From Vicinamibacterales bacterium (GTDB lineage Bacteria; Acidobacteriota; Vicinamibacteria; Vicinamibacterales; Fen-181), in assembly GCA_036504215.1 (NCBI GenBank), contig DASXVO010000054.1, positions 124,001 to 188,000 on the forward strand: a stretch of 64,000 bases of DNA, given 5' to 3'. The number at the start of each line of letters is the position of its first letter. Positions within the stretch are counted from its first letter, which is position 1. Position numbers and translations under genes: made by a program. Shown one piece after another: positions 15,657-36,479 of this stretch. Below the pieces are notes generated by a model, which saw nothing but the letters and a program-made list of their open reading frames with translations, was not told the origin of the DNA and ran no database searches.

Positions 15657-15907
15657 ATGGTGTCCGCAATGCGCTGGCGCTCTCTGTCGCTGCTGGTGGG
15701 CCTACTCGCCGTGTCGGGTAGTGTCCAGGCTTCCTTCGCGCTCGCCCCGCCCTCCGTCGATACCGTCCTCGTCGCTCAGGCTGAGACTCGCCCGACCGCG
15801 ACGATCGTGACGAGCCGTGGTGGACCTATTTCGTCCGGCAGGGCCGCGACGCGAGCGATCTGCTCAACGACGTTTTGAAGCCCCTCCTGCAGGAGCACCA
15901 ACCATGA
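15657..15907 (+). pseudogene. secreted protein relic: signal peptide joined to C-terminal end
   Basis: The ATG at 15657 after GGGGAGGG encodes a signal peptide (LSLLVGLLAVSGSVQA) and about 30 further residues. Around 15805 a different frame takes over, reading DEPWWTYFVRQGRDASDLLN and LKPLLQEHQP, then a TGA that overlaps the next ATG as ATGA. The PWW.Y..RQGR ending resembles the C-terminus of a family found next to VWA-domain proteins in Acidobacteria. Only about 80 codons remain of what should be several hundred, so the centre has been deleted while the translational coupling to the next gene is intact. Confidence 0.5.
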
Positions 15908-16278
15908 CCCTCGCGCGTCGTGCCGGATGCGTCGCACTTCTCCTCTTCGCCACGCTGGGCGCGGTTGCTGCCGCTGCTCGCCGAGCCGGCGACACCCCGG
16001 GTACCCGCAGCCCGCGGGTGACCTTCTCGACCAGGGTCGAGGCCGTGCGTGTCGACGTCCTGGTGACGGAGGACGGCGTTCCGGTGCGCGGACTCACCGC
16101 ACGGGACTTCGACGTGCTCGACAACGGTGTTCCCCAGACGGTCGACCTCGTCAGCTTCGAACAGTTGCCGCTCAACGTCGTCCTCGCGTTCGACGTCAGC
16201 CACAGTGTGGCTGGAGAATCGCTCGACCACCTTCGGACGGCCGGGAAGGCGCTGCTCGGCGGCCTTCGCGCCGGGGAC
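15904..16278 (+). pseudogene. secreted VWA-domain protein, truncated after the first third
   Basis: ATG overlapping the previous stop (ATGA). A signal peptide is followed by VEAVRVDVLVTEDGVPVRGL, TARDFDVLDNGVPQTVDLVS and LNVVLAFDVSHSVAGESL, where DVSHS corresponds to the DxSxS metal-ion site of von Willebrand A domains. Similarity stops after LLGGLRAGD; the frame then runs on as unrelated sequence antisense to the next gene. At least half of the VWA domain is missing. The roughly 230 bases that follow, up to the DinB-like gene, hold no feature I can identify. Confidence 0.65.
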
Positions 16279-16512
16279 CACCGAAGACCAATGGAGGAGG
16301 AAGCGATCGGTACCGCCTGGCTGGATGGCCAGACCCAGGCTCTGCATCGGGGCATCACGCCGGAACTGATATCACAGGCGGCGTGGAACCGGAACGACGG
16401 TCACGCATCGACCGTCGACCCAGTTGTGTTGCGCACGTCGCTGCCTGGTCCAATGCCGTGCTGCTACGTATCCCAGGTCGCTGGCCTGCGCAACACACGT
16501 GAGCTCGAGGGG

Positions 16513-19321: not shown

Positions 19322-19698
19322 GTGCCTGCACGCGCAGTCCGCCGGCGTTTCGAGCACCTCTCGAGGGGAGATGTGGCGGCGATTCATCCCGACCGAACGT
19401 CAGACGCCAGTTGGGACGACGCGCTCCGACTCGCGCTGGGCGAGACGGTCACACTGCACCTCGAGGAGTACCGCGGCGTCGTCTTCATCGGCGTGCGTGG
19501 CCAGGGGGAATCGGCCTGTCCTATCCGTCCGACGGTATCGAGTTCGCGATCCGCCGGTCGAAATTCCCGGGTCAGCGATGGCTGCTGCGCCTGCATGCCT
19601 CGGCATTCCTGGCCGGCGGCCAGCTGGGCACGCTCGCGTGTCCGCCCGCCGCCGCCGGGAGGACGACGGACGGGTGGCTGGAGCTGCGCTTCAAGTAG
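19322..19698 (+). pseudogene. hypothetical gene split by a frameshift at a G-run
   Basis: Frame one gives DALRLALGETVTLHLEEYRG and VVFIGVRG up to about 19500. From there the neighbouring frame continues smoothly as GIGLSYPSDGIEFAIRRSKF and PGQRWLLRLHASAFLAGGQL, ending TTDGWLELRFK. The switch coincides with a run of five G at about 19503-19507. A single-base indel there, real or a sequencing error, would account for it. The domain is beta-rich and unrecognised. The true start is unclear; no ribosome-binding site was found near 19322. Confidence 0.45.
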
Positions 19699-19714
19699 AG
19701 AGACTCGACGGAGC

Positions 19715-20911
19715 CTACAGTATGGCGCCTGCCGGCTCCTCCGCCTCGACACCCACAAACTCGTCACCATCGTCGTAGACGGTCAGCCTCGTGGCGGCGG
19801 CTCTGAGGATGAAGCCAGCGACGATGCCGCCCGCCAATGACAGGGTGACGGTGATGGCGATGCCAGCGAGTTGCGCTGTGGCGATCCCCTGGACCACAAA
19901 GGTCGCAATCAAGCCGCCGAGGATCCCCGGCATGCCGTGCAGGTTGTGGACGCCGCAGGTGTCGACGATCTTGAACGCGCACTGGATCTTCGGCTGCACG
20001 ACAGCGTAGCCCACGACGCACAGCGCGCCCGCGAGCAGCCCGATTCCAAACGCCAGCGGCGCCGGTACCAGGTTGCACGTGGCGCCGATGGCCACACCGC
20101 CCGCAAGCGCCGCGTTGGCCATGTCGGCAATGCTCACCTTGCCCTTGCCGACGAGTGAACTCACGATGTAGGTCGCCAGCGTGGCCCCGCACAAGGCGAG
20201 GATCGTATTGACCGCCGTCGCCGCAAACTGCTCGGTCGGCACGACCGCACTGCAGAAACTCGGCCAGAACAGCCACAACACCATGGAGCCAATCATCGAG
20301 AAGCGGTTGGAGGTTGGATCGTTGGCGACCTCGATGTCGCGGTGGCGCCGGCTGGTTAGGGCGACGGCGAGTCCGAGGCCGAAGTAGGCGCCGAATGCGT
20401 GGATAGTGATGGACCCGGCCGCGTCCACGAACCCTCTGGTCGCAGCAAGGCCTCCGTCGAGCACCAAGTGCTCGTTCAGCATGTACAGCGGCACCATCAC
20501 GAGCGCCAGAAGCGCGTACTGATACAGACGGATACGGCCGGGAACGGCTCCCGCGGCGATCAGGGCCGACGCGACAGCGAACTCGCTCAGCAGTAGCGCC
20601 TTGATCGTGTGCGCACCGACAGGCTCGGCGGATAGGATGCCGGTCGAGCGCAGGGCGAGGTACGAGGGCATTCCGACGGCCACGATCAGGTACGTGCCGG
20701 TGAGCGCGCCGTATCCGTACCGTTTGACGAAGACCATCAGGAACCCGAACCCGACGAGCAACATGGCCAGGATATGAATGGCGAAATCGTATTGCTGCAC
20801 CTCCCGCACCGTGCTGACGAGATCCGAGGCCACGGGTTGTGCGCTCGCAAGAACGGGCGTCAGCAACAGCACGCAGATCACTGTTGCGACGAATGACGAC
20901 AAGACCCTCAC
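19715..20911 (-). CDS. Rh-type (Rhesus-family) ammonium channel
   Basis: A 398-residue membrane protein with a signal peptide (to about residue 24) and 11 transmembrane helices. The pore histidines are present: His171 in DAAGSITIHAFGAYFGLG and His322 in DTCGVHNLHGMPGILGG. These two motifs, plus NRFSMIGSMVLWLFWPSF, are the Rh/Rh50 versions, not the GVHGVGG type of ordinary bacterial AmtB. Rh proteins conduct NH3 and possibly CO2. No glnK regulator is adjacent. The Met preceding SSF was taken as start; TCACCTCAG upstream on the plus strand gives CTGAGGTGA as a weak ribosome-binding site. Confidence 0.85.
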   Translation of the reverse strand: MRVLSSFVATVICVLLLTPVLASAQPVASDLVSTVREVQQYDFAIHILAMLLVGFGFLMVFVKRYGYGALTGTYLIVAVGMPSYLALRSTGILSAEPVGAHTIKALLLSEFAVASALIAAGAVPGRIRLYQYALLALVMVPLYMLNEHLVLDGGLAATRGFVDAAGSITIHAFGAYFGLGLAVALTSRRHRDIEVANDPTSNRFSMIGSMVLWLFWPSFCSAVVPTEQFAATAVNTILALCGATLATYIVSSLVGKGKVSIADMANAALAGGVAIGATCNLVPAPLAFGIGLLAGALCVVGYAVVQPKIQCAFKIVDTCGVHNLHGMPGILGGLIATFVVQGIATAQLAGIAITVTLSLAGGIVAGFILRAAATRLTVYDDGDEFVGVEAEEPAGAIL

Positions 20912-21040
20912 CTCAGGTGTCCTTTCCTCGGTGCCGGGACGCGACGTGATGGTGACGGAGTGGTTGCGTCGAGAGCGCGCCGCGGGGGTGGGAGCGACGT
21001 AGCGGCAGGCGGGCTGAGGACATACCGAAAGCGGCGTCGA

Positions 21041-21060
21041 CGCTCAGGTGTTTCTGAGCG
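21041..21060. repeat. 7-bp inverted repeat upstream of the Rh channel
   Basis: CGCTCAG-GTGTTT-CTGAGCG forms a perfect 7-bp stem with a 6-base loop. It lies between the methyltransferase gene (ending 21170) and the Rh gene (starting 20911), both reverse strand. Without a T-run it is a poor intrinsic terminator; an operator or leader structure is equally possible. Confidence 0.3.
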
Positions 21061-21169
21061 GCCGATGCGTTCCGGTTACCTTCACCAGATTGCGGCCACC
21101 GCCGCGTGGCAGATCTTCGGTCGCAGATCGCGCGCCAGGATCTGGCGAGGTCGGCTGGGAGGGCCCGAA

Positions 21170-22393
21170 TCACCCACGCAGCTGCGACGGCTGCGGGCAG
21201 TAGAGAATCTCGCGCGCCAGCAGCTCGGTCATCACGTCCACCCAGCGCTCTTTGGGGTGACCGAGGCCGGCGACGGCCTCCATCACGCGCCTGCCCCGGA
21301 ATGGGGTGGTCTGATCCTTGAACGCCACGACCACCGACGCGGTCAGCCCGCTCAAGCTCACCGGCGGGCGGAGGCGCAGTCGGTAGCTCAGGCCCTCGAT
21401 CCGCTGGCCGCGGTGCAGATTGCGGGTTTCGGTCTGTATCGACACCTCCGGGCTGATCGCGAAGTAGCAGCCTGCACACGCGTCCGCCGACGGCAAGGGA
21501 CGCAGCCGGTTCTCTCTGGTGCCCACGATCAGATCCAGCTTGTGCCGCATCTGCAGCTGTTCGACCAACTGGAAGCGCTGCAAGTCGGTGAGGTGCTGGA
21601 CCAGTGCCTGTCCGCCTGGAGTGCGCGACGGCAATGACCATTCCTCGGGCTCGCACCAGCGCAGGAACTTCAGGCCGCTTCGTTCGAGCATCCCCCAGAG
21701 TTCGCCCACCTCGTAGGAGGTTTCGTTGACGTTCAGATAGCGATCGACGAATTCGCTTTCGGGGATCCCGTCGAACAGACCGCACGGCCCGAACCGAACG
21801 GCGTCACTCGGCATCTCCGAAGCCAGCTTCCTGGCAACCGCCAGCCGCTCGGCAATCGGGCGGTCCCTGGGAATCAGAATATCGACGGCGCGAACGAACC
21901 GGTACAGGGCATCGCGCCCGTGGGTCCCATACACCATCAGGCCGATGATGCCGTGCGGGGCGAGCACGCGTCGCAGATGTGTGAGCCCCTCCTCCGGTGA
22001 CGAGAGGTGATGGAGCACCCCCGACGAGAAGATCACGTCGAAGCCGCCATCCGGAACATCCAGTCCTTCGAGCGTCATCAGGTCGACCTCTTGGAAGCGG
22101 ACGTTGCGCAGCCCCTCCTTCTCGGCTTCGGCGGCTGCATCGCTCAAGTTGACCCGGTTGACGTCGATGCCGGTGAAATGAACGTCCGGCTGGGTGAACG
22201 CCGCGCCCAGCACCTGGTTGCCGCGGCCGCACCCCGCGTCCAGGCAGTGCATCGGCCTTCCCGCCGGCCGGTCGAGCAGACCGTAGCTCAAGAGCAGCCG
22301 CACGTCCGATCCCGTGCGAATCTCCATCTCCGGACTGGCCGGATACGGGTATCGCTCGTACATGTCGCGGATCGCCAGTGTAATCGGGTCCAT
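21170..22393 (-). CDS. class I SAM-dependent methyltransferase with C-terminal extension
   Basis: 407 residues from the ATG at 22393. IRDMYERYPYPASPE precedes the Rossmann core: motif I CLDAGCGRGNQVLGAA near 50, TGIDVNRVNLSDAA, and GGFDVIFSSGVLHHLSSPEE, which are strongly methyltransferase-like. After about residue 190 a long helical region follows (RPIAERLAVARKLASEMPS) and then a beta-rich C-terminal domain without known motifs, of the type seen in methyltransferases with a regulatory or substrate domain. It starts 11 bases after the DppC-like permease and is the last gene of the importer operon. Acceptor unknown; a peptide or amino acid is possible from context only. Confidence 0.75.
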   Translation of the reverse strand: MDPITLAIRDMYERYPYPASPEMEIRTGSDVRLLLSYGLLDRPAGRPMHCLDAGCGRGNQVLGAAFTQPDVHFTGIDVNRVNLSDAAAEAEKEGLRNVRFQEVDLMTLEGLDVPDGGFDVIFSSGVLHHLSSPEEGLTHLRRVLAPHGIIGLMVYGTHGRDALYRFVRAVDILIPRDRPIAERLAVARKLASEMPSDAVRFGPCGLFDGIPESEFVDRYLNVNETSYEVGELWGMLERSGLKFLRWCEPEEWSLPSRTPGGQALVQHLTDLQRFQLVEQLQMRHKLDLIVGTRENRLRPLPSADACAGCYFAISPEVSIQTETRNLHRGQRIEGLSYRLRLRPPVSLSGLTASVVVAFKDQTTPFRGRRVMEAVAGLGHPKERWVDVMTELLAREILYCPQPSQLRG

Positions 22394-22404
22394 GGATTCC
22401 CCCC

Positions 22405-23232
22405 CTACCGCACCGCCCCTTCGCTTCCCGACAGCGCGTCGCCCACCACGTTGATGCCGAGCGCCGTCAGGAAGATGAACAGCCCAGGGAACAGCGCCAG
22501 CCACGGTTCCGAGGTCATCGTCGTCTGCGCCTGGTAGAGCATGTTGCCCCAGCTGGGCGTGGGCGGCTGCACGCCGACGCCAAAGAAGCTGAGCGCCGAC
22601 TCGAGCAGCATGCCCCGGGCGATCGCCAGCGTCAACGACACGGCGATCGAAGCGGTGGCGCCGGGCAGCAGGTGGCGCCAGATCACGCGACGCGCATTGG
22701 CGCCGGCCGCGCGCGCGGCGGACACGAACTCGCGCTCCCTCAGTCCCAGGAACTCCGCGCGCACGAGGCGCGCGGTCTCCATCCAGCCTGCCAGGCCGAC
22801 GAGCACGATGAGCGCGGGCACGGACGGCTGGAGCACGGCCGAGGCGATCATCAGGAACGGCAGCCGCGGCATGGCGAGCATCGCGTCGGTCATCCGCATG
22901 AGCAGGCTGTCCACGACGCCACCGGCGTAGCCGCTCGCCGCGCCGATCCCGACGCCGACGGCCGCCGCGACCAGTGCCGACAAGAGGCCGACCGCCAACG
23001 AGACCCTCGCGCCGAACAGGACCCGGGTGCAGAGATCGCGGCCGAGTTCGTCGGTCCCGAACCAGTGGTTGGACGACGGCGCGGCGCGCCTGTTGGAGAG
23101 ATCGAGGGCCTCGGCAGAGTAGGGTGCGATCAGTGGCGCGGCCGCCGCGAGAACGATCAGAGCCGCCAGCAGCAGCGCGGCCACCTTCACGGCCATGCTT
23201 CCGGACGTCCACCCGCGGCGCGGCCGCATCAT
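22405..23232 (-). CDS. oligopeptide-type ABC importer permease (DppC/OppC family)
   Basis: 275 residues, N-terminal membrane segment then a short periplasmic part (HWFGTDELGRDL, the OppC-N signature) and the five-helix BPD_transp_1 domain. The cytoplasmic EAA loop is AARAAGANARRVIWRHLLPG, which docks to the ATPase. The ATG at 23232 overlaps the stop of the DppB-like gene (ATGA). No ATP-binding protein is encoded in the window, so the complex must borrow an ATPase encoded elsewhere. Confidence 0.9.
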   Translation of the reverse strand: MMRPRRGWTSGSMAVKVAALLLAALIVLAAAAPLIAPYSAEALDLSNRRAAPSSNHWFGTDELGRDLCTRVLFGARVSLAVGLLSALVAAAVGVGIGAASGYAGGVVDSLLMRMTDAMLAMPRLPFLMIASAVLQPSVPALIVLVGLAGWMETARLVRAEFLGLREREFVSAARAAGANARRVIWRHLLPGATASIAVSLTLAIARGMLLESALSFFGVGVQPPTPSWGNMLYQAQTTMTSEPWLALFPGLFIFLTALGINVVGDALSGSEGAVR

Positions 23233-24188
23233 GCGGCCCCGCTCCCAATCCTCGGGTCGAGGCGGCGATGGAGCAGATCCGCGCCGAGGTTGAGCACGAC
23301 CACGGCGCAGGACGACATCATCAGGAACGCCATCAGCACGGTGTAGTCGCGCTTCGCCAGGGCATCGGTGAACAGGCTGCCGACGCCGGGCCACGCGAAT
23401 ACGCTCTCGGTCACCACGGCTCCCGACACCATGATGGCGGCGTCGATCATCGCGACGGTCAGCACCGGTATCACCGCATTGCGCAGCGCGTGCCGCAGCC
23501 AGACGGACCAGGCGGGCACGCCTCTGGCGCGAGCCGCCGCGATGTAGGGCTGCCCGAGGACGTCGCCCATCGACGCTCGCAGGTACCGGGACCACGCCGC
23601 CGCGTGCACGAGCGCGAGCACGGTTGTCGGCATCGCCAGGTGTTCGAGTCGATCGACGAGGCCGCTGCCGCCGAGCGTGCTGCGGCCGGACGAGGGCAGC
23701 CAGCCGAGCCAGACGCTGAAGACGATCTGCAGGACGAGGCCGAACCAGAACACGGGCAGTGAGATCCCGGCCGAGGCCAGGGCCGCGGTGAGTCGGTCGA
23801 ACCAGCCGTGACGTCGTATGGCCGCGATGACGCCGACGGGCATGGCGATCAACGCGCCGAGTGCCATCGAGCTGGCGACGAGCTCGAGCGTCGCCGGAAG
23901 ACGCTCGATGATCCGTTCGAGCACCGGCCGGCCATCGGCGTAGCTGTAACCCCAATCACCGCGCACGAACGCCCCGAGCCAGGACAGGTACTGAATCCAG
24001 AGCGGGCGGTCGAGGCCGAGGGCCCGCCGCAACCGCTCGATGTCCTGCGGCCGGACATTCGGGTTCGAGAGGTAGAGCGTCAGCGGGCCGCCTGGCGCCG
24101 CGTGGATCAGCAGGAACACGAGCAACGACACGACGAGCAGGAGGGGGACCGCCTGGCACAGCCGACGGACGATGAATCGGGCGAACAC
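23229..24188 (-). CDS. oligopeptide-type ABC importer permease (DppB/OppB family)
   Basis: 319 residues with about six transmembrane helices. It begins MFARFIVRRLCQAVPLLLVV, the standard DppB opening, followed by the periplasmic LNPNVRP-like region and the EAA loop AAARARGVPAWSVWLRHALRN. The C-terminal FAWPGVGSLFTDALAKRDY is characteristic of the family. It abuts the stop of the binding protein with no gap and overlaps the DppC gene, so all three are coexpressed. Confidence 0.9.
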   Translation of the reverse strand: MFARFIVRRLCQAVPLLLVVSLLVFLLIHAAPGGPLTLYLSNPNVRPQDIERLRRALGLDRPLWIQYLSWLGAFVRGDWGYSYADGRPVLERIIERLPATLELVASSMALGALIAMPVGVIAAIRRHGWFDRLTAALASAGISLPVFWFGLVLQIVFSVWLGWLPSSGRSTLGGSGLVDRLEHLAMPTTVLALVHAAAWSRYLRASMGDVLGQPYIAAARARGVPAWSVWLRHALRNAVIPVLTVAMIDAAIMVSGAVVTESVFAWPGVGSLFTDALAKRDYTVLMAFLMMSSCAVVVLNLGADLLHRRLDPRIGSGAA

Positions 24189-25796
24189 CTATTGCCCAAT
24201 CTTCCATTCGTACACGTTCCAGAAGATCCCGACGTTCGTCGGATTCCCCCGGAAGCCGCGAAGCCGCGCGGGCACCGCATCGAGCCGCGTGATGTTGTAG
24301 AGCGGAATCTCCGGGGCCAGATCGGCGATCCGACGTTGGGCCTCCTGCAGCAGCCGGCGGCGCTCGCCGAGATCCACCGTCCGATCGGACGCGTACAGCA
24401 CCTTCGTCAACGCGTCGTCACGCAGGTAGTTGATGTTCCGGCCCGCCGGTGGCGTCCGGTCCGCGGCGAAAAAGAGGGTCATCTCCGGATCGGACGGCAT
24501 CTGCCACCAGTGCAGCATCGCGTCGAACCGACCCTCGAACCACAGCGCGCTGATCGTGGTCCCATCCTGGAGCTGCACCTTCACGTCGGCGCCGACATCC
24601 CGCCACTGGCGCTGCACCGCCTGAGCGATGTTCTCCCTGATCGCGAAACCCGCCTGCGTGACCAGCGTGAACGACAGCGGCCGGCCGTCGCGCTCGCGGA
24701 CGGCGTCGCCGTTGGTGTCGCGCCACCCGGCATCGTCCAGCAGCGCGCGTGCCTGGGACGGATCGAACCCGTAGCGGCGAACCTGGTCGGTATACGCCCA
24801 CGACAGCGGCTGGACCGGTCCGTCGATGACCGGCGCGAGGCCGTCGAGAATCGTTCGCGTCAGGAGCGACCGGTCGATGGCATGCGCCAGGGCGCGGCGC
24901 ACGCGCACGTCCCGAAACGCCGGCACGCTCTTCTGGTTGAGCGTGATGTGCTCGTAGGCGTTCCCCATCATCCGGTGGATCGCGAGGCCCGGCACCGACT
25001 GAATCTCCCGGTACTTGTCCCAGGGCACGAGGGCGACGACGTGCACCTCGCCGCTGCGAAGCTGGTTGATGCGCGTGTTGGTGTTCGTGAGGAACTTGAA
25101 GAGCAGGCGCTCGATCCTCGGCTGCCCGCGCCAGTACTTGGGCACGCGCTCGAGGAGGATGTGCTCGCCGGTGCGCCATTCGACGACGCGGTACGGTCCG
25201 GTGCCGAGCGGCTTGCGGTTGTAGTCCGTGGCCCGATCGATGTCGCGTCCCTCGAGGACGTGCTTCGGGAAGCAGCCCCTGATGAATTGGATCGCGTAGG
25301 GCGCGTAGACCTCGCGATAGTGGATGACCGCCGTCAGCGCATCGGGCGCGTCCACCGACGAGATGCGGTCGAATCCATCGGTACTCTCGGGTTTGTACGC
25401 CGGGTTCTGGAGTGCCTCGACGGTGAACTTGACGTCGGCCGACGAGAAAGGTCGGCCGTCCTGCCACGAGACGTTCGGGCGCAGCTTCCAGGTGACGTCC
25501 ATCCCGCCGTCGGGACGGAGGCGCACGCCGCCGTTCTCGAGCGACGGCACGTCGGTCGCGAGCACCGGCACGACGTTCATCTTCTCGTCGGTGGTCGTCA
25601 GGCCCTCGACCACGCACGTCTGGATGTCCTCGAGGATGTGTGTGCTGAACCGGTTCAGCGTGTCGGGCTCGCGGTCGTAGCCGATGATGAGCAGGCTGTT
25701 CGACGGGCCGGTGGCCGGCCGCGGTGAGCAGCCGCCGAAGGCGACGACCGCCGCGATCGATGCGACGCCGACGCGCAGTCCCCTATGTTGCGGCAT
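24189..25796 (-). CDS. family 5 solute-binding lipoprotein of a peptide importer
   Basis: 535 residues. The lipobox VAFGGC near 17-22 predicts lipidation, and the SBP_bac_5 pattern follows: YDREPDTLNRF, WKLRPNVSWQDGRPFSSADV, LGTGPYRVVEW, RVRRALAHAIDRSLL. Such proteins capture oligopeptides or similar amines for the permeases encoded downstream. Its ATG lies inside the last codons of the DUF885 gene (14-base overlap), linking import to that hydrolase. The preferred peptide cannot be read from sequence. Confidence 0.9.
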   Translation of the reverse strand: MPQHRGLRVGVASIAAVVAFGGCSPRPATGPSNSLLIIGYDREPDTLNRFSTHILEDIQTCVVEGLTTTDEKMNVVPVLATDVPSLENGGVRLRPDGGMDVTWKLRPNVSWQDGRPFSSADVKFTVEALQNPAYKPESTDGFDRISSVDAPDALTAVIHYREVYAPYAIQFIRGCFPKHVLEGRDIDRATDYNRKPLGTGPYRVVEWRTGEHILLERVPKYWRGQPRIERLLFKFLTNTNTRINQLRSGEVHVVALVPWDKYREIQSVPGLAIHRMMGNAYEHITLNQKSVPAFRDVRVRRALAHAIDRSLLTRTILDGLAPVIDGPVQPLSWAYTDQVRRYGFDPSQARALLDDAGWRDTNGDAVRERDGRPLSFTLVTQAGFAIRENIAQAVQRQWRDVGADVKVQLQDGTTISALWFEGRFDAMLHWWQMPSDPEMTLFFAADRTPPAGRNINYLRDDALTKVLYASDRTVDLGERRRLLQEAQRRIADLAPEIPLYNITRLDAVPARLRGFRGNPTNVGIFWNVYEWKIGQ

Positions 25797-27591
25797 CTGC
25801 CCTCATCAGTTTTGCGGCCAGCGCCACGGGGATCGCTCCGAACGACAGCAACCGGTCGTGGAATGCTCGCAGGGAGAAGCGCGCCCCGAGCGCCTTCGAC
25901 CGTTCGGCGCGAAGCTGGTGAATCTGGCTGGTTCCGAGCCAGTACATGACCGCGGCGCCCGGGAACATCGAGTTCTTGGAAGCCTCGCTTCGCGCGGCTT
26001 CTGGCGACATCCCCACGCCGTCGGCGTAGAACGTCACCGCCTCGTCGAAGGTCATCATCCCCTGGTGGAGTTCGATGTCCACGATCGCGCGGCCGAGCTG
26101 CCGGAGGCGGCTGTGTTCCTCGGCCACGGTCTCGAGCGGCGTCAGGAGCCCGTATTCCTGCGCGAGATCCGTCGCGTAGCACGCCCAGCCCTCGGCCAGC
26201 GTGCCGCCGCAGAACATGGCGATACGGCTGGCGCCGTCCACCGCCGCGATCCGCCCGACGAGCGACAGGGAGCGCGCGGCGTGGGCATTCTGCACGTGAT
26301 GGCCGAGCCCGCCGTGGTGGACCACGTGGTTCAGCTTGATCACGTTCGTGTTGACGGCCCGCAGGCGCCGCTCGCATTCCTCCGGCGGCATCATCGTGTC
26401 GATCGCCGGCACCGTGCACTCGTGCACCGCGGGCGGATCGAACGGCGCCGGCGAACGGTAGAAGAGATAGTAGAGCGAGGGAGCGGCCTCGCGGGTCCAG
26501 ACTGGGATCGGCACGAACCGGATCGGTGCGTCGGGCCATGTGACGAGGTCGTGTGCGGCCGCCATCTCGCGACACTTCCGCCACCACTCGTCGTGCGCGC
26601 CGAGATACGACGGGACGTCCGGATGATTGTCGGCCAACCGCCCCTGGATGTCAGGCCAGCCGCCGGGCGCCTCGCGTCGAGCCGCCTCGGAGAAGCGGGC
26701 GCTCTGCACCTCGAATGCCGCACGGGCCTCGGCGAGCAGCGCGGCAGCGGGCTGCGGCGTCCAGTGCCCGCGTCTCAACAACAACTCGAGATGCTCGCCG
26801 CCGCACGAGTAGCGCGAGGCGGCCGCCGGGCGTATCGTCTTCCGCAGCCACGTCTCGAGGCGCCCGAACGCGGCCAGCGCGTCTCGCGCGGCGTCTCGCG
26901 CGGCCTGCACTTCCGGCGTCGCCTTGCACGTGCACATCGCCGCCGCCATCCGCGCGCCTCGGAGCGGGTCGAAACCGGCTCCGGCTCCTTCGACTGCCGC
27001 GCGGGCTGACTCGTGCGCCAGCCAGAGGTCGAGACCAAACGACAGCAGCGTCCTGGCCCCGCCGCATTCGCGCAGGGCGCGGGCCGTCCACTCCGCGGGA
27101 ATCTCAGCCGCGATCGACCGGCGAGCCTGCTCGAGGAAGCCAGGGATGCCACGCAGCCGGGCGGTGAGCGACTCCAGCCGCGCGGCGAAGGGTGCGAACT
27201 CGCGGTTCATCAGCGCGATGATTCCGAAGATCGCCTCGCCAGTGAACAGAGCGGGGTTGCCGCGCTGAAAGTGCGGGCCGTTCAGCTCGGCGATCTGGAT
27301 CTCGAGGAAGGAGTCGGCAAGTTGGATGTCGATCGATCGCGCAGGCCACGACGGTGTCTCCGCCCCGAGCGCTCCGGTCGGCGCCAGTGCGCGGGGGCCG
27401 GCCGAAGCCGAGCCGGACTCGTCCGCGAGGCCCCTGCGCAGCGCCCTCATCTCTGCCACGGCAGCCTCGAGGCCGTCGGGCGACCAATCCGGCAGCCGGT
27501 CGTCGTGGTCGTGGACGCCCGTGAACGTGGCCGTCACCGGCCGAAGCCGGCAGTAGCTCTCGAAGAACGGACCCAGCGCATCGTGCGACAC
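25783..27591 (-). CDS. DUF885-family protein (putative metallopeptidase)
   Basis: 602 residues, no signal peptide, helical throughout. The DUF885 hallmark region is KLNHVVHHGGLGHHVQNAHA followed by CGGTLAEGWACYATDLAQEY, where the clustered histidines and the Glu of EGW are the likely metal site. The GTG start at 27591 has AGAGGT upstream. It is the first gene of a five-gene operon with the peptide-binding protein, two permeases and a methyltransferase, which supports a role in cytoplasmic breakdown of imported peptides. DUF885 is sometimes assigned to M2/M3-like peptidases; activity is unproven here. Confidence 0.75.
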   Translation of the reverse strand: MSHDALGPFFESYCRLRPVTATFTGVHDHDDRLPDWSPDGLEAAVAEMRALRRGLADESGSASAGPRALAPTGALGAETPSWPARSIDIQLADSFLEIQIAELNGPHFQRGNPALFTGEAIFGIIALMNREFAPFAARLESLTARLRGIPGFLEQARRSIAAEIPAEWTARALRECGGARTLLSFGLDLWLAHESARAAVEGAGAGFDPLRGARMAAAMCTCKATPEVQAARDAARDALAAFGRLETWLRKTIRPAAASRYSCGGEHLELLLRRGHWTPQPAAALLAEARAAFEVQSARFSEAARREAPGGWPDIQGRLADNHPDVPSYLGAHDEWWRKCREMAAAHDLVTWPDAPIRFVPIPVWTREAAPSLYYLFYRSPAPFDPPAVHECTVPAIDTMMPPEECERRLRAVNTNVIKLNHVVHHGGLGHHVQNAHAARSLSLVGRIAAVDGASRIAMFCGGTLAEGWACYATDLAQEYGLLTPLETVAEEHSRLRQLGRAIVDIELHQGMMTFDEAVTFYADGVGMSPEAARSEASKNSMFPGAAVMYWLGTSQIHQLRAERSKALGARFSLRAFHDRLLSFGAIPVALAAKLMRADAAT

Positions 27592-32600: not shown

Positions 32601-32734
32601 TCGATCGTCTGCCTCGGGGGCGCAGCCAGGCGTCGACCGAGGATCGTCGGTGACGGACCATGGAAGTCCGATTCATCTGAACTGGCGGACGAGTTGAGAC
32701 CGGCCGGCGAGTTGAATGGGAACGCGGACTGCAC

Positions 32735-32740
32735 TAGCAT
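32735..32740 (+). promoter_or_regulatory. TAGCAT -10-like hexamer before the second binding-protein gene
   Basis: TAGCAT ends 8 bases before the ATG at 32749; the intervening GGCGGCCA is not a good ribosome-binding site. Suggests transcription starting within one or two bases of the ATG. Confidence 0.4.
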
Positions 32741-32748
32741 GGCGGCCA

Positions 32749-34452
32749 ATGCTCAGGAACTTCACCGTTGCCGTCCTCATCGTCTTCGCGCTGGTGGGGA
32801 CCGGTTGCACGAAAGAACGATCCACGGCCGGCGCGCCCGAGGCGCGGACGCTCATCTCGTCGATTCGCGGCGAGCCGCGTACGTTCAACCGCTTTGCGGG
32901 GCGTGACTCGGTGCTCGATATGGTCACGCACCTCACGCAGGGCCGTCTGGTGCGCATCGATCGAACGACCCAGGACCTCCAACCGTGGCTGGCCGAATCG
33001 TGGGCGCCGGGACCAGACGGCCTGAGCTACACCGTGAAGCTTCGCAAGGGCGTGCGGTTCTCCGACGGGACGCCGTTCACCTCGGCCGACGTCCTGTTCA
33101 CCTTCCGCGCCGTGTACGACGAGAGGACCGCCAGCCCGCTCGGCGAATCGATGCGGGTCGGCGGCAAGCCGTTACTGGTCACCGCGCCGGACGCGGACAC
33201 GGTGATCATCCGCTTTCCGTCGCTCTTCGGACCGGGGATGCGGCTGCTCGACAACCTGGCCATCCTGCCGAAGCACAAGCTGCAGGCGGCGCTCGACGCG
33301 GGCACGCTCGCGTCGGCGTGGGGGCCATCCACGCCGGTCTCGGAGATCGTGGGTCTCGGCCCGTTCGTGCTGAAGGAGTATCAGCCGGGACAGCGGCTGG
33401 TGTTCGTGCGCAACCCCAACTACTGGCGCAGCGACTCGAGCGGTGCGAAGCTGCCCGCGCTCGACCGCCTGACGCTCGAGATCGTGCCCGACCAGAACGC
33501 GGAGTTGCTGCGCCTGCAGGCGGGGCAGATCGACTTCACGCAGACCGAGGTGCGGCCGGACGACTACGCCACGCTCAAGCGGGCGGCCGACGCGGGCAGG
33601 CTGTCGCTCGTCGATCTCGGCGTGGGCCTCGATGCCGACTCCTTCTGGATCAACCTGCGGTCGAACTGGCCGGGAGCGGCCAGGCGGCCATGGCTGCAGC
33701 GCGTCGAGTTGCGGCGCGCGATCTCGCACGCGGTCGATCGCCGCGCGTTCGCGGACACGGTGTTCCTGGGCGCGGGCGTGCCGGTGTACGGGCTGGTTTC
33801 GCCGGGCAACGCGCGGTGGTTCGCGGCCGACCTGCCGAGGTACGACTACGACCCGGCAGCCGCGAAGAAGCTGCTCGCGTCGATCGGTCTGACGATGCGG
33901 AAGGGCACGACAACGCTGGAGGATCGCCCGGGTGTGAAGGCCTCGTTCACCATCCTCACGCAGAAGGGGAACACGCTGCTCGAGCGAGGCGCGGCCTTCA
34001 TCGCGGAAGAGCTGAAGAAGGTCGGCCTGGCCGTCGAGGTGGCCCCGCTCGAGATCGGCGCGGCGATCGACCGCATCGAGCGCGGCGAATACGACGCCGT
34101 CTACTTCCGGTTCCTGACGACGGATCTGGATCCGGCGCTGAACCTGGATCTGTGGTTGAGCTCGGGGGGCGGGCACGTGTGGAACCCTGGCCAATCGAAG
34201 CCAGCCACCGACTGGGAGAAGCAGGTGGACGATCTGATGCTGCGCCAGGCGGCGACGAGCGAACAGGCCGAGCGCAAGGCGATATTCGACCAGGTGCAGA
34301 CGATCGTCGCGGAGCACCAGCCGATCATCCAGTTCGTGGCGCCGCGCATCTACATCCCGATGAGCTCCCGCGTGCGTGGTGCAACTCCTGCGTTGTTGCG
34401 GCCGGCGATCCTGTGGAATCCGGACGGCCTGACGGTGAGTGGACCGAAGTGA
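32749..34452 (+). CDS. family 5 solute-binding lipoprotein (second peptide importer)
   Basis: 567 residues with a lipoprotein signal (VAVLIVFALVGTGC; the Cys becomes lipidated). SBP_bac_5 landmarks: IRGEPRTFNRFAGRD, VKLRKGVRFSDGTPFTSADV, LGPFVLKEYQPGQ, VELRRAISHAVDRRAF, and the C-terminal VAEHQPIIQFVAPRIY. I chose the ATG at 32749, which begins exactly at the signal peptide; an in-frame codon at 32716 adds an unlikely leader. Followed after 26 bases by its permeases. It is only distantly similar to the binding protein at 24189-25796, so ligands probably differ. Confidence 0.9.
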   Translation: MLRNFTVAVLIVFALVGTGCTKERSTAGAPEARTLISSIRGEPRTFNRFAGRDSVLDMVTHLTQGRLVRIDRTTQDLQPWLAESWAPGPDGLSYTVKLRKGVRFSDGTPFTSADVLFTFRAVYDERTASPLGESMRVGGKPLLVTAPDADTVIIRFPSLFGPGMRLLDNLAILPKHKLQAALDAGTLASAWGPSTPVSEIVGLGPFVLKEYQPGQRLVFVRNPNYWRSDSSGAKLPALDRLTLEIVPDQNAELLRLQAGQIDFTQTEVRPDDYATLKRAADAGRLSLVDLGVGLDADSFWINLRSNWPGAARRPWLQRVELRRAISHAVDRRAFADTVFLGAGVPVYGLVSPGNARWFAADLPRYDYDPAAAKKLLASIGLTMRKGTTTLEDRPGVKASFTILTQKGNTLLERGAAFIAEELKKVGLAVEVAPLEIGAAIDRIERGEYDAVYFRFLTTDLDPALNLDLWLSSGGGHVWNPGQSKPATDWEKQVDDLMLRQAATSEQAERKAIFDQVQTIVAEHQPIIQFVAPRIYIPMSSRVRGATPALLRPAILWNPDGLTVSGPK

Positions 34453-34478
34453 ACGCTGGCTCCTGACTCCTGGCTGCG

Positions 34479-35447
34479 ATGCTGTCTTTTCTGATCCGCC
34501 GCCTGGCCGCCGCCCTCGTGCTCGTGGCAGTGGTGTCGTCGGGGGCGCTGCTTCTGACGCGTCTCGCGCCGGGCGACTTCGCGTCGGAGCTCTTCGGGTC
34601 GGGTGCGACGCGCGAGTCGATGGCGCGCGAGCGGGCGCGCTACGGTCTCGATCGCCCGATTGCGTCGTTCTATGCCGACTGGGTGTCGCGCGCGGCCCGG
34701 CTCGACCTCGGCACGTCGCTGTACTATCGCCGCCCGGTCACGGAGTTGGTCCGGCAGCGCGCGTTGAACACGGGGCTGCTCGCGTTGTGCGCGCTCGTCG
34801 CGGCCACGTTCATCGGCATTCCGGCGGGTATCATCGGCGGCAGCCGCCGGGGCCTCGTCCCCAGCGTCATCCGCGGGACGTCGCTCCTGTTCCTCTCGCT
34901 TCCCTCGCTCGTCACCTCACTCGTGTTGGTGCTATTTGCCGCCCGCACCGGGTGGTTCCCGATTGGCGGGATGGGATCGATCGACGCGTGGCAGGCTGGG
35001 ACTGCCGTCTGGTTCGCGGATCTCGCGTGGCACCTGCCGCTGCCAACCGCCGCGCTGGCGCTGCCGTTGGCCGCCATGCTGGAGCGGCTCCAGGCGCAGT
35101 CGATGCGTGACGCGGTCGATCGGCCGTTCTCGCTGGCTTCGCTCGCGCGCGGCGTGCCGCGGGGCCGTCTGGTCTGGCGCGACACGCTCCGCGCCGCGAT
35201 CGCGCCGGTCGCATCCGTCTACGGGTTCGTCCTCGGCAGCCTGCTCAGCGGATCGTTCGTCGTGGAGGTCGTGACCGCGTGGCCCGGCCTCGGCCGGTTG
35301 ATGTACGACGCGTTGGTGGCCCGCGACCTGTATCTCGTTGCCGGGTGCGCGGCCGCCGGCTCGATTTTCCTCGCCGCCGGCAGCCTCGTCTCCGATCTCG
35401 CCCTCGCGTGGGCTGATCCGCGCCTGCGCACGTCGTCACGGGCCTGA
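34479..35447 (+). CDS. oligopeptide-type ABC permease (DppB family), second importer
   Basis: 322 residues. MLSFLIRRLAAALVLVAVVS opens the first helix, then LTRLAPGDFASELFG, an EAA loop LASLARGVPRGRLVWRDTLR, and the VVEVVTAWPGLGRLMYDALV block typical of DppB C-termini. Six hydrophobic helices. It follows the binding protein closely, and the DppC-like gene comes 18 bases after it. Confidence 0.88.
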   Translation: MLSFLIRRLAAALVLVAVVSSGALLLTRLAPGDFASELFGSGATRESMARERARYGLDRPIASFYADWVSRAARLDLGTSLYYRRPVTELVRQRALNTGLLALCALVAATFIGIPAGIIGGSRRGLVPSVIRGTSLLFLSLPSLVTSLVLVLFAARTGWFPIGGMGSIDAWQAGTAVWFADLAWHLPLPTAALALPLAAMLERLQAQSMRDAVDRPFSLASLARGVPRGRLVWRDTLRAAIAPVASVYGFVLGSLLSGSFVVEVVTAWPGLGRLMYDALVARDLYLVAGCAAAGSIFLAAGSLVSDLALAWADPRLRTSSRA

Positions 35448-35453
35448 GCCTGC

Positions 35454-35459
35454 TATCAT
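35454..35459 (+). promoter_or_regulatory. TATCAT -10-like hexamer before the second DppC gene
   Basis: TATCAT ends 6 bases before the GTG at 35466. A promoter inside the operon directly before the last gene is unexpected and may allow the DppC-like protein to be made independently. Confidence 0.35.
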
Positions 35460-35465
35460 CTCCCC

Positions 35466-36479
35466 GTGACGCGCCGTCCGCGACTCTCCACCGGCACGAG
35501 TTGGAGCGGCATTGGGCTGCTTGCGGTCGTGGCGCTGTCCGCTGTCGCCGCGCCGGTCCTGGCGCCGCACGATGCCGGTGAGGCGTTTCGCGGGTTCCTC
35601 TACGCGCCGCCCATGCGGCCGCACGTCGTGGCGGACGATGGGACCTGGCGAGCGCCCTTTGTGTACCCGCTGCGGCTGGTGAGCCGGTTGGAACAGAGGT
35701 ACGAAGAAGACCGCGCGCACCCAGCGTCGCTGGCGTTCTTCTCGGGCTGGAAGGTCATTGGGGTCGCGGACGAGCGCGCAGGGCCGTGGCTCCCACTCGG
35801 CGCCGACGCGTCGGGCCGCGACCAGCTCACGCGGCTGCTGTTTGGCGCGCGAACGTCGCTTGGCGTCGCGCTGCTCGCGACGCTCGGCGCGCTGTTGATC
35901 GGGGGAATCGCGGGCGGCATTGCCGGCTACAGCGGCGGGGCTCTGGACGAGGCGTTGATGCGGGTCGCCGAGTTCGTGCTGGTGTTGCCCGCGGTGTACG
36001 TGGTGCTGGCGCTGCGGGCGGCTCTGCCGCTCGTGTTGCCGGCGTGGATCGTCTTCGTGCTGATGGCGGGCATCTTCGCGGTGGTCGGCTGGCCGTGGGT
36101 GGCGCGTGCCGTGCGGGCGACGGTTGCGGCCGAGCGGACGCGCGAGTACGCCGACGCGGCGCGATCGCTCGGCGCGGGCCACGCGCGGGTGCTCCTGCGC
36201 CACCTGATGCCGGCGTGCCGCGGCTTGATGGCGACGCAGGCGATCCTGCTGCTGCCGACCTTCATCGTGGCCGAGGCGACGCTGTCGTTCATCGGCCTCG
36301 GCTTTCCCGACGCCGTGCCCAGTTGGGGATCGATGCTCCACGAGGCGGCGAACGTCAACGCGATGGCCGATTTCCCGTGGACGCTCGCTCCGGCCGCCGC
36401 GATCTTCGCCGTCACGCTGGGGGCGAACCTGGTCCTGGAGAGATCGACGCAGGAACCACACCGCGCGCAGCGGACATAG
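35466..36479 (+). CDS. oligopeptide-type ABC permease (DppC family), second importer
   Basis: 337 residues from a GTG. The first helix (IGLLAVVALSAVAAPVLAPH) is followed by an unusually long periplasmic stretch of about 90 residues before LGADASGRDQLTRLLFGART, the normal OppC-N end. The core has the EAA loop AARSLGAGHARVLLRHLMPA and LSFIGLGFPDAVPSWGSML. The extended loop may give a specific docking surface for its binding protein. As with the first importer, no ATPase gene follows. Confidence 0.87.
   Translation: MTRRPRLSTGTSWSGIGLLAVVALSAVAAPVLAPHDAGEAFRGFLYAPPMRPHVVADDGTWRAPFVYPLRLVSRLEQRYEEDRAHPASLAFFSGWKVIGVADERAGPWLPLGADASGRDQLTRLLFGARTSLGVALLATLGALLIGGIAGGIAGYSGGALDEALMRVAEFVLVLPAVYVVLALRAALPLVLPAWIVFVLMAGIFAVVGWPWVARAVRATVAAERTREYADAARSLGAGHARVLLRHLMPACRGLMATQAILLLPTFIVAEATLSFIGLGFPDAVPSWGSMLHEAANVNAMADFPWTLAPAAAIFAVTLGANLVLERSTQEPHRAQRT

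Follow-up and report, generated by a model that had tools for sequence, protein, structure and literature searches.

A predicted Rh50-type ammonia channel in a Vicinamibacterales genome that also carries an AmtB-type gene

The window analyzed here, a stretch of 64,000 nt from a Vicinamibacterales bacterium (assembly GCA_036504215.1, contig DASXVO010000054.1, nt 124,001 to 188,000), contains a gene that a sequence-only reading had assigned to an Rh-type rather than an AmtB-type ammonium channel. The locus raises two questions: to which of the two types the product belongs, and whether such a channel would serve uptake, equilibration or release of ammonia in this bacterium.

Gene, predicted protein and pore residues

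The gene was an intact ORF of 398 aa on the minus strand, nt 20911..19715, with a GTG start at 20911 and a stop at 19715-19717; the plus strand of the same segment was broken up by stops. The coordinates in the sequence-only reading were exact, and the strand had been absent from it. The codon-position G+C of the gene was similar to that of the neighbouring genes, and a pattern scan of nt 19500-21300 for promoters and terminators found none. At nt 19322-19698 of the plus strand, two overlapping frames resembled, by eye, one small gene convergent with the Rh50 gene, whose reading frame shifts close to the G-run at 19504-19508; the shift may be an assembly error or a sign of decay.

Among solved structures, the best match of the predicted protein was Rh50 of Nitrosomonas europaea (NeRh50; E 5.1e-133, 447 bits), with human RhAG second (E 9e-53, 183 bits); values for human RhCG and Rh(CE) were E 1.4e-50 (176 bits) and E 4.6e-23, respectively, and Escherichia coli AmtB (E 7e-11, 45 bits) fell far below the Rh matches. 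The Pfam Ammonium_transp domain was detected at E 2.8e-53, and this value together with that for NeRh50 places the match beyond chance. The NCBIfam amt model gave 126.1 bits, under its cut-off of 343.3. Identity was 58% over 362 aligned positions to NeRh50 (PDB 3b9w, 3b9y, 3b9z, 3bhs), 36% to RhAG, 35% to RhCG, 24% to E. coli AmtB and 18% to the Amt protein encoded by the same genome. Because of the 58% identity to a solved structure, the fold was taken as settled, and the product is predicted by this homology to be a trimeric membrane protein with 11-12 helices.

An alignment of 111 rows was compiled, comprising 28 Amt and 83 Rh rows, the latter being the window protein, 77 of the 80 best loci of a genome scan (see below), two further loci and three PDB chains. 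The motifs SITIHAFGAYFGL (residues 167-179) and TCGVHNLHGMPG (residues 318-329), which had been quoted as Rh50 signatures, were both found, and their general forms distinguished Rh from Amt rows: TCGV.NLHG.PG was present in 80 and IH.FGA.FGL in 71 of the 83 Rh rows, and neither in any of the 28 Amt rows. The window protein shared the twin-His, Asp and Phe-gate residues with NeRh50 (Table 1), and the places of AmtB W148 and S219 were taken by the same hydrophobic kind of residue in both. The diagnostic motifs and pore residues were also common to RhAG and RhCG, which belong to the same family. With E. coli AmtB, the protein had the superfamily and the twin-His pore residues in common but lacked equivalents of Trp148 and Ser219. 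As read from the alignment, Leu151 and Val223 at these places are the Rh-type loss of the AmtB S1 ammonium site; a review describes NeRh50 as keeping, of the S1 site, the Phe alone, with no ammonium-binding site there (PMC10433425).

Table 1 Features of the Rh50 gene and its upstream neighbours (coordinates are those of the window; residue counts are from the 111-row alignment)
Feature	Position (nt)	Strand	Evidence or observation
Rh50-type ammonia/ammonium channel gene	19715..20911	-	ORF, NeRh50 match, tree
Rh50 N-terminal hydrophobic stretch, signal-peptide-like		-	Judged by eye
Putative Shine-Dalgarno-like GAGGAAAGGA, 8 nt ahead of the Rh50 GTG	20920..20929	-	Sequence read
Phe gate, Phe111 (AmtB F107)	20579..20581	-	Phe in 80/83 Rh, 28/28 Amt rows
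Leu151 (at AmtB W148)	20459..20461	-	Trp in 28/28 Amt, 0/83 Rh rows (79 Leu)
Invariant Asp163 (AmtB D160)	20423..20425	-	Asp in 83/83 Rh, 28/28 Amt rows
Twin-His, first His, His171 (AmtB H168)	20399..20401	-	His in 83/83 Rh, 28/28 Amt rows
Phe gate, Phe219 (AmtB F215)	20255..20257	-	Phe in 83/83 Rh, 28/28 Amt rows
Val223 (at AmtB S219)	20243..20245	-	Ser in 27/28 Amt, 0/83 Rh rows
Twin-His, second His, His325 (AmtB H318)	19937..19939	-	His in 83/83 Rh, 28/28 Amt rows
SAM-dependent methyltransferase, upstream neighbour	21170..22408	-	Pfam Methyltransf_31, E 4.8e-20
Tightly packed upstream run, same strand as Rh50	22405..27591	-	NCBIfam, Pfam
DUF885 protein	27591-25783	-	NCBIfam, Pfam
Oligopeptide-binding protein	25796-24189	-	NCBIfam, Pfam
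Two oligopeptide ABC permeases	24188-23229, 23238-22405	-	NCBIfam, Pfam

Phylogeny and distribution

A phylogeny had been proposed in the sequence-only reading as a check on the Rh assignment. In a maximum-likelihood tree (quick search, LG+C20, SH-aLRT) built from 73 of the 111 aligned rows, the 55 Rh rows were split from the 18 Amt rows with an SH-aLRT of 100, and the window protein fell on the Rh side, outside AmtB; the branch between the two was long (4.3), which leaves the root within Rh open and the side of the window protein beyond doubt. The assignment to the Rh type was therefore borne out by the sequence searches, the diagnostic pore residues and the tree, and it is virtually certain that the gene encodes a member of the Rh50 family of the Amt/Mep/Rh superfamily.

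Within the Rh side, the window protein clustered (support 99) with those of the acidobacterial MAGs fen_186, fen_299 and GL140_5, close orthologues in the same family with 68-76% identity. Next to this group were one row from Fibrobacteres and two from Verrucomicrobia (support 99) and, further out, deltaproteobacterial and Bacillota rows (support 91). NeRh50 was located in a separate nitrifier clade with rows from Nitrosovibrio, Nitrosomonas and Nitrospira, and the human proteins RhAG and RhCG, with 35-36% identity, likewise branched apart from the window protein. Other acidobacterial rows, namely two from Holophagaceae (L034 and L054) and L004 and L005, were placed elsewhere in the tree. The latter two are divergent Rh50 proteins (54% and 51% identity, respectively) from genomes of other families of the same phylum (G276 and G223), and their separate branch represents a second acidobacterial Rh50 lineage. 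AU tests rejected trees in which all 8 acidobacterial Rh rows (p-AU 5.9e-05) or 6 of the 8 (p 0.0025) were forced into one clade; these tests were based on quick trees with groups picked after the tree had been seen, and the p values are optimistic. Since the forced clades were rejected, Rh50 probably entered the Acidobacteria more than once, in agreement with the view of Matassi 2017 (PMC5209957) that horizontal transfer drives the spread of Rh50. The same paper describes the Rh50 of the acidobacterium Koribacter versatilis as nested among Clostridiales; this protein, of the same family as that of the window, was compared by its published description.

In a sample of 297 genomes of the phylum, 17 gave matches with E values of 1e-10 or lower; three of these, the window's own included, did so at Rh strength, and the rest were Amt-like (26-33% identity). 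Within the order, matches at E 1e-40 or better were found in 5 of 162 genomes, all in the family of the window; Rh50 was present in 5 of the 7 genomes of this family, the two without it being 91% and 83% complete, and in none of the 155 others of the order. Three other genomes of the family carried orthologues that aligned along most of the sequence at 70-78% identity, and a fourth gave a partial match with 74% identity. This patchy distribution is consistent with lateral acquisition. Plasmid spread was considered and rejected: among the matches listed (10 of 15 plasmid records in all), one was at Rh strength, on a replicon of Peptoclostridium acidaminophilum, and the other nine were at the Amt-like level of 29-34% identity.

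A scan of the genomes of 84,980 species yielded 382 stretches encoding relatives, which may hold repeats of one locus as well as distant kin, and no prevalence was drawn from this number. The best 80 of the 382, which were examined, span nitrifiers, Verrucomicrobia, Lentisphaerae, Bacillota, Myxococcota and others. The statement that N. europaea is the known bacterial example is out of date, as Matassi 2017 (PMC5209957) reported Rh50 in 34 of 3,853 prokaryote genomes, one of them that of the acidobacterium Koribacter versatilis, and the present scan found many more. Other published carriers among bacteria are nitrifiers, anammox bacteria and Clostridia, and Rh types have also been published for comammox clade A (PMC6311188). 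Literature searches on an "Rh-type" ammonium transporter in Acidobacteria found none, and those on Rh50 and ammonia in Acidobacteria found Matassi 2017 alone.

AmtB-type gene, P-II and metabolic setting

The sequence-only reading had described a single gene without glnK. The first part is true of the locus and not of the genome, in which a gene of the AmtB type lies at C7:36484-37689 (L001:1474-2712). Its product passed the NCBIfam amt cut-off of 343.3 with 423.5 bits and matched Amt-1 of A. fulgidus (1.2e-92) and AmtB (5e-81), with no Rh chain among its 28 solved-structure matches. The second part holds for the whole genome, and is thus stronger than claimed: no match to P-II (GlnB/GlnK, PF00543) was found in this genome, rated 100% complete, by a search that was positive in 13 of 14 genomes used as control. 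The AmtB-type gene is likewise without a P-II partner, in which respect the genome differs from E. coli with its AmtB and GlnK. P-II was present in 112 of the 162 genomes of the order and in only one of the seven of the family, being undetected in the genome of the window and in five of the six other family genomes, some of which are incomplete.

Among 17 Rh50 genomes picked from the best 80 relatives, 12 had a further Pfam Ammonium_transp gene, and Rh50 stood alone in five (G431, G440, G442, G444 and G445), several of these genomes being drafts. Coexistence of Rh50 and AmtB was flagged as worth comparative study by Matassi 2017 (PMC5209957), in which N. europaea is described as having no AMT gene. 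The genome of the window differs from N. europaea in the additional AmtB-type gene and in having no detectable AmoA, the Nitrosovibrio and Nitrospira genomes searched as controls both being positive; an explanation of the gene by nitrification was rejected on the latter ground. Urease was not found in the genome either (control positive in 4 of 14 genomes), and two genes for ELFV (glutamate/leucine-type) dehydrogenases were present.

The methyltransferase gene ends about 258 bp upstream of the Rh50 gene and is itself preceded by the run of peptide-related genes listed in Table 1. The window also encodes M20 peptidases, a class-III aminotransferase and, by a weak match, a CoA-transferase subunit; a peptide-using host fits this gene content. 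In the flanks of L021, L022 and L023 (up to 6 kb, less for L022), the loci of the three MAG orthologues, the Rh gene was the only match to the window; an operon with peptide uptake was thus discarded as proof of role. Two oligopeptide-type ABC transporter sets lie within 14 kb, at nt 22405-25796 (minus strand) and 32716-36479 (plus strand, named from the appearance of its translations alone); the interval that separates the two sets contains genes for DUF885, M20 peptidase and amidohydrolase proteins. In the region of nt 15817-16347, a frame on the plus strand starts, to judge by eye, like a VWFA-domain protein and then changes to unrelated sequence, in the manner of a truncated or frameshifted gene.

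Predicted role and alternative readings

By homology, Rh50 would form a trimer in the cytoplasmic membrane, each subunit with one Phe-gated hydrophobic pore lined by the twin His. Without the AmtB S1 site, it would conduct ammonia down its gradient, at rather low affinity and in either direction, and would work without P-II control. Because a separate AmtB-type transporter would serve uptake, the likeliest role of Rh50 would be to equilibrate or vent the ammonia that is freed during growth on peptides and amino acids. The reading that best accounts for the data overall, at a probability of roughly 0.6, is a low-affinity, gradient-driven, P-II-independent Rh50 channel that equilibrates or vents ammonia; its trimeric state, its activity as a channel, the low affinity and a physiological role in net export are inferred. 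For the role taken by itself, the chance that it is mainly equilibration or export may be put at about even, and so may that of net export during growth on peptides, the likeliest use. Export or equilibration of NH3 derived from amino acids, as suggested in the sequence-only reading, is plausible; the direction is unreadable from sequence, and the peptide-uptake neighbourhood was not kept in the three relatives.

NeRh50 itself has been described in two ways. Bidirectional, pH-dependent methylammonium transport and simulations were reported in favour of an NH3 channel, and proteoliposome electrophysiology reported the protein to be electrogenic (PMC7447429, PMC10433425, PMC10794816). As the pore residues are the same, this split applies to the window protein as well, and passive NH3 equilibration may be the wrong description of what it does.

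A role in uptake is also possible for the window protein because loss of Rh50 is reported to lower methylammonium uptake in N. europaea (PMC10794816). Rh50 would then serve chiefly as a second, low-affinity route of uptake while ammonium is abundant, as it does in ammonia-oxidising bacteria, and AmtB would be used under ammonium scarcity. The window protein and N. europaea Rh50 belong to the same family, and Rh types are used by most ammonia-oxidising bacteria and by comammox clade A (PMC6311188), but without a detectable AmoA the cell is not expected to need ammonia in quantity for catabolism, and the genome retains its AmtB-type gene; we regard this role as the less probable one, though a serious candidate. 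Conduction of CO2 or exchange of NH4+ for H+, both proposed for other Rh proteins (PMC10794816), is improbable for the window protein, since the twin-His pore is intact and, for CO2, reviews describe neither a CO2 pocket nor permeation of CO2 in simulations (PMC10433425, PMC10794816).

That the gene is a non-functional relic or sits on a contaminant contig might be suspected from an assembly of 90 contigs with an estimated contamination of 3.45% and from the absence of Rh50 in the rest of the order (all 155 genomes). Its frame is intact, however, and lies inside a long contig (at least 188 kb), four other family genomes carry orthologues (one by a partial match), and its codon-position G+C resembles that of its neighbours, which makes this reading very improbable. 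An AmtB-type transporter resembling Rh in the two motifs alone, a thought prompted by the single Pfam family that holds both types, is ruled out for practical purposes by the amt score below cut-off, NeRh50 as the best structural match, the pore residues, the tree, and the identities and motifs.

The reading of the protein as an Rh50 channel that would equilibrate or vent ammonia may be carried further, to a rather speculative scenario: this acidobacterial family would have gained Rh50 laterally, retained its AmtB-type transporter and dropped P-II control, with Rh50 acting as a constitutive ammonia vent. If this is true, such a vent would make the GlnK gate dispensable for a cell that degrades peptides. 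The Rh50 family, its structure and its patchy spread have already been described, and the gene is of a kind already known; it adds one more acidobacterial family, apparently of non-nitrifiers, to the carriers of bacterial Rh50. The main point of interest is the natural case that it provides, in which Rh50 and AmtB coexist in a genome without a detectable P-II gene.
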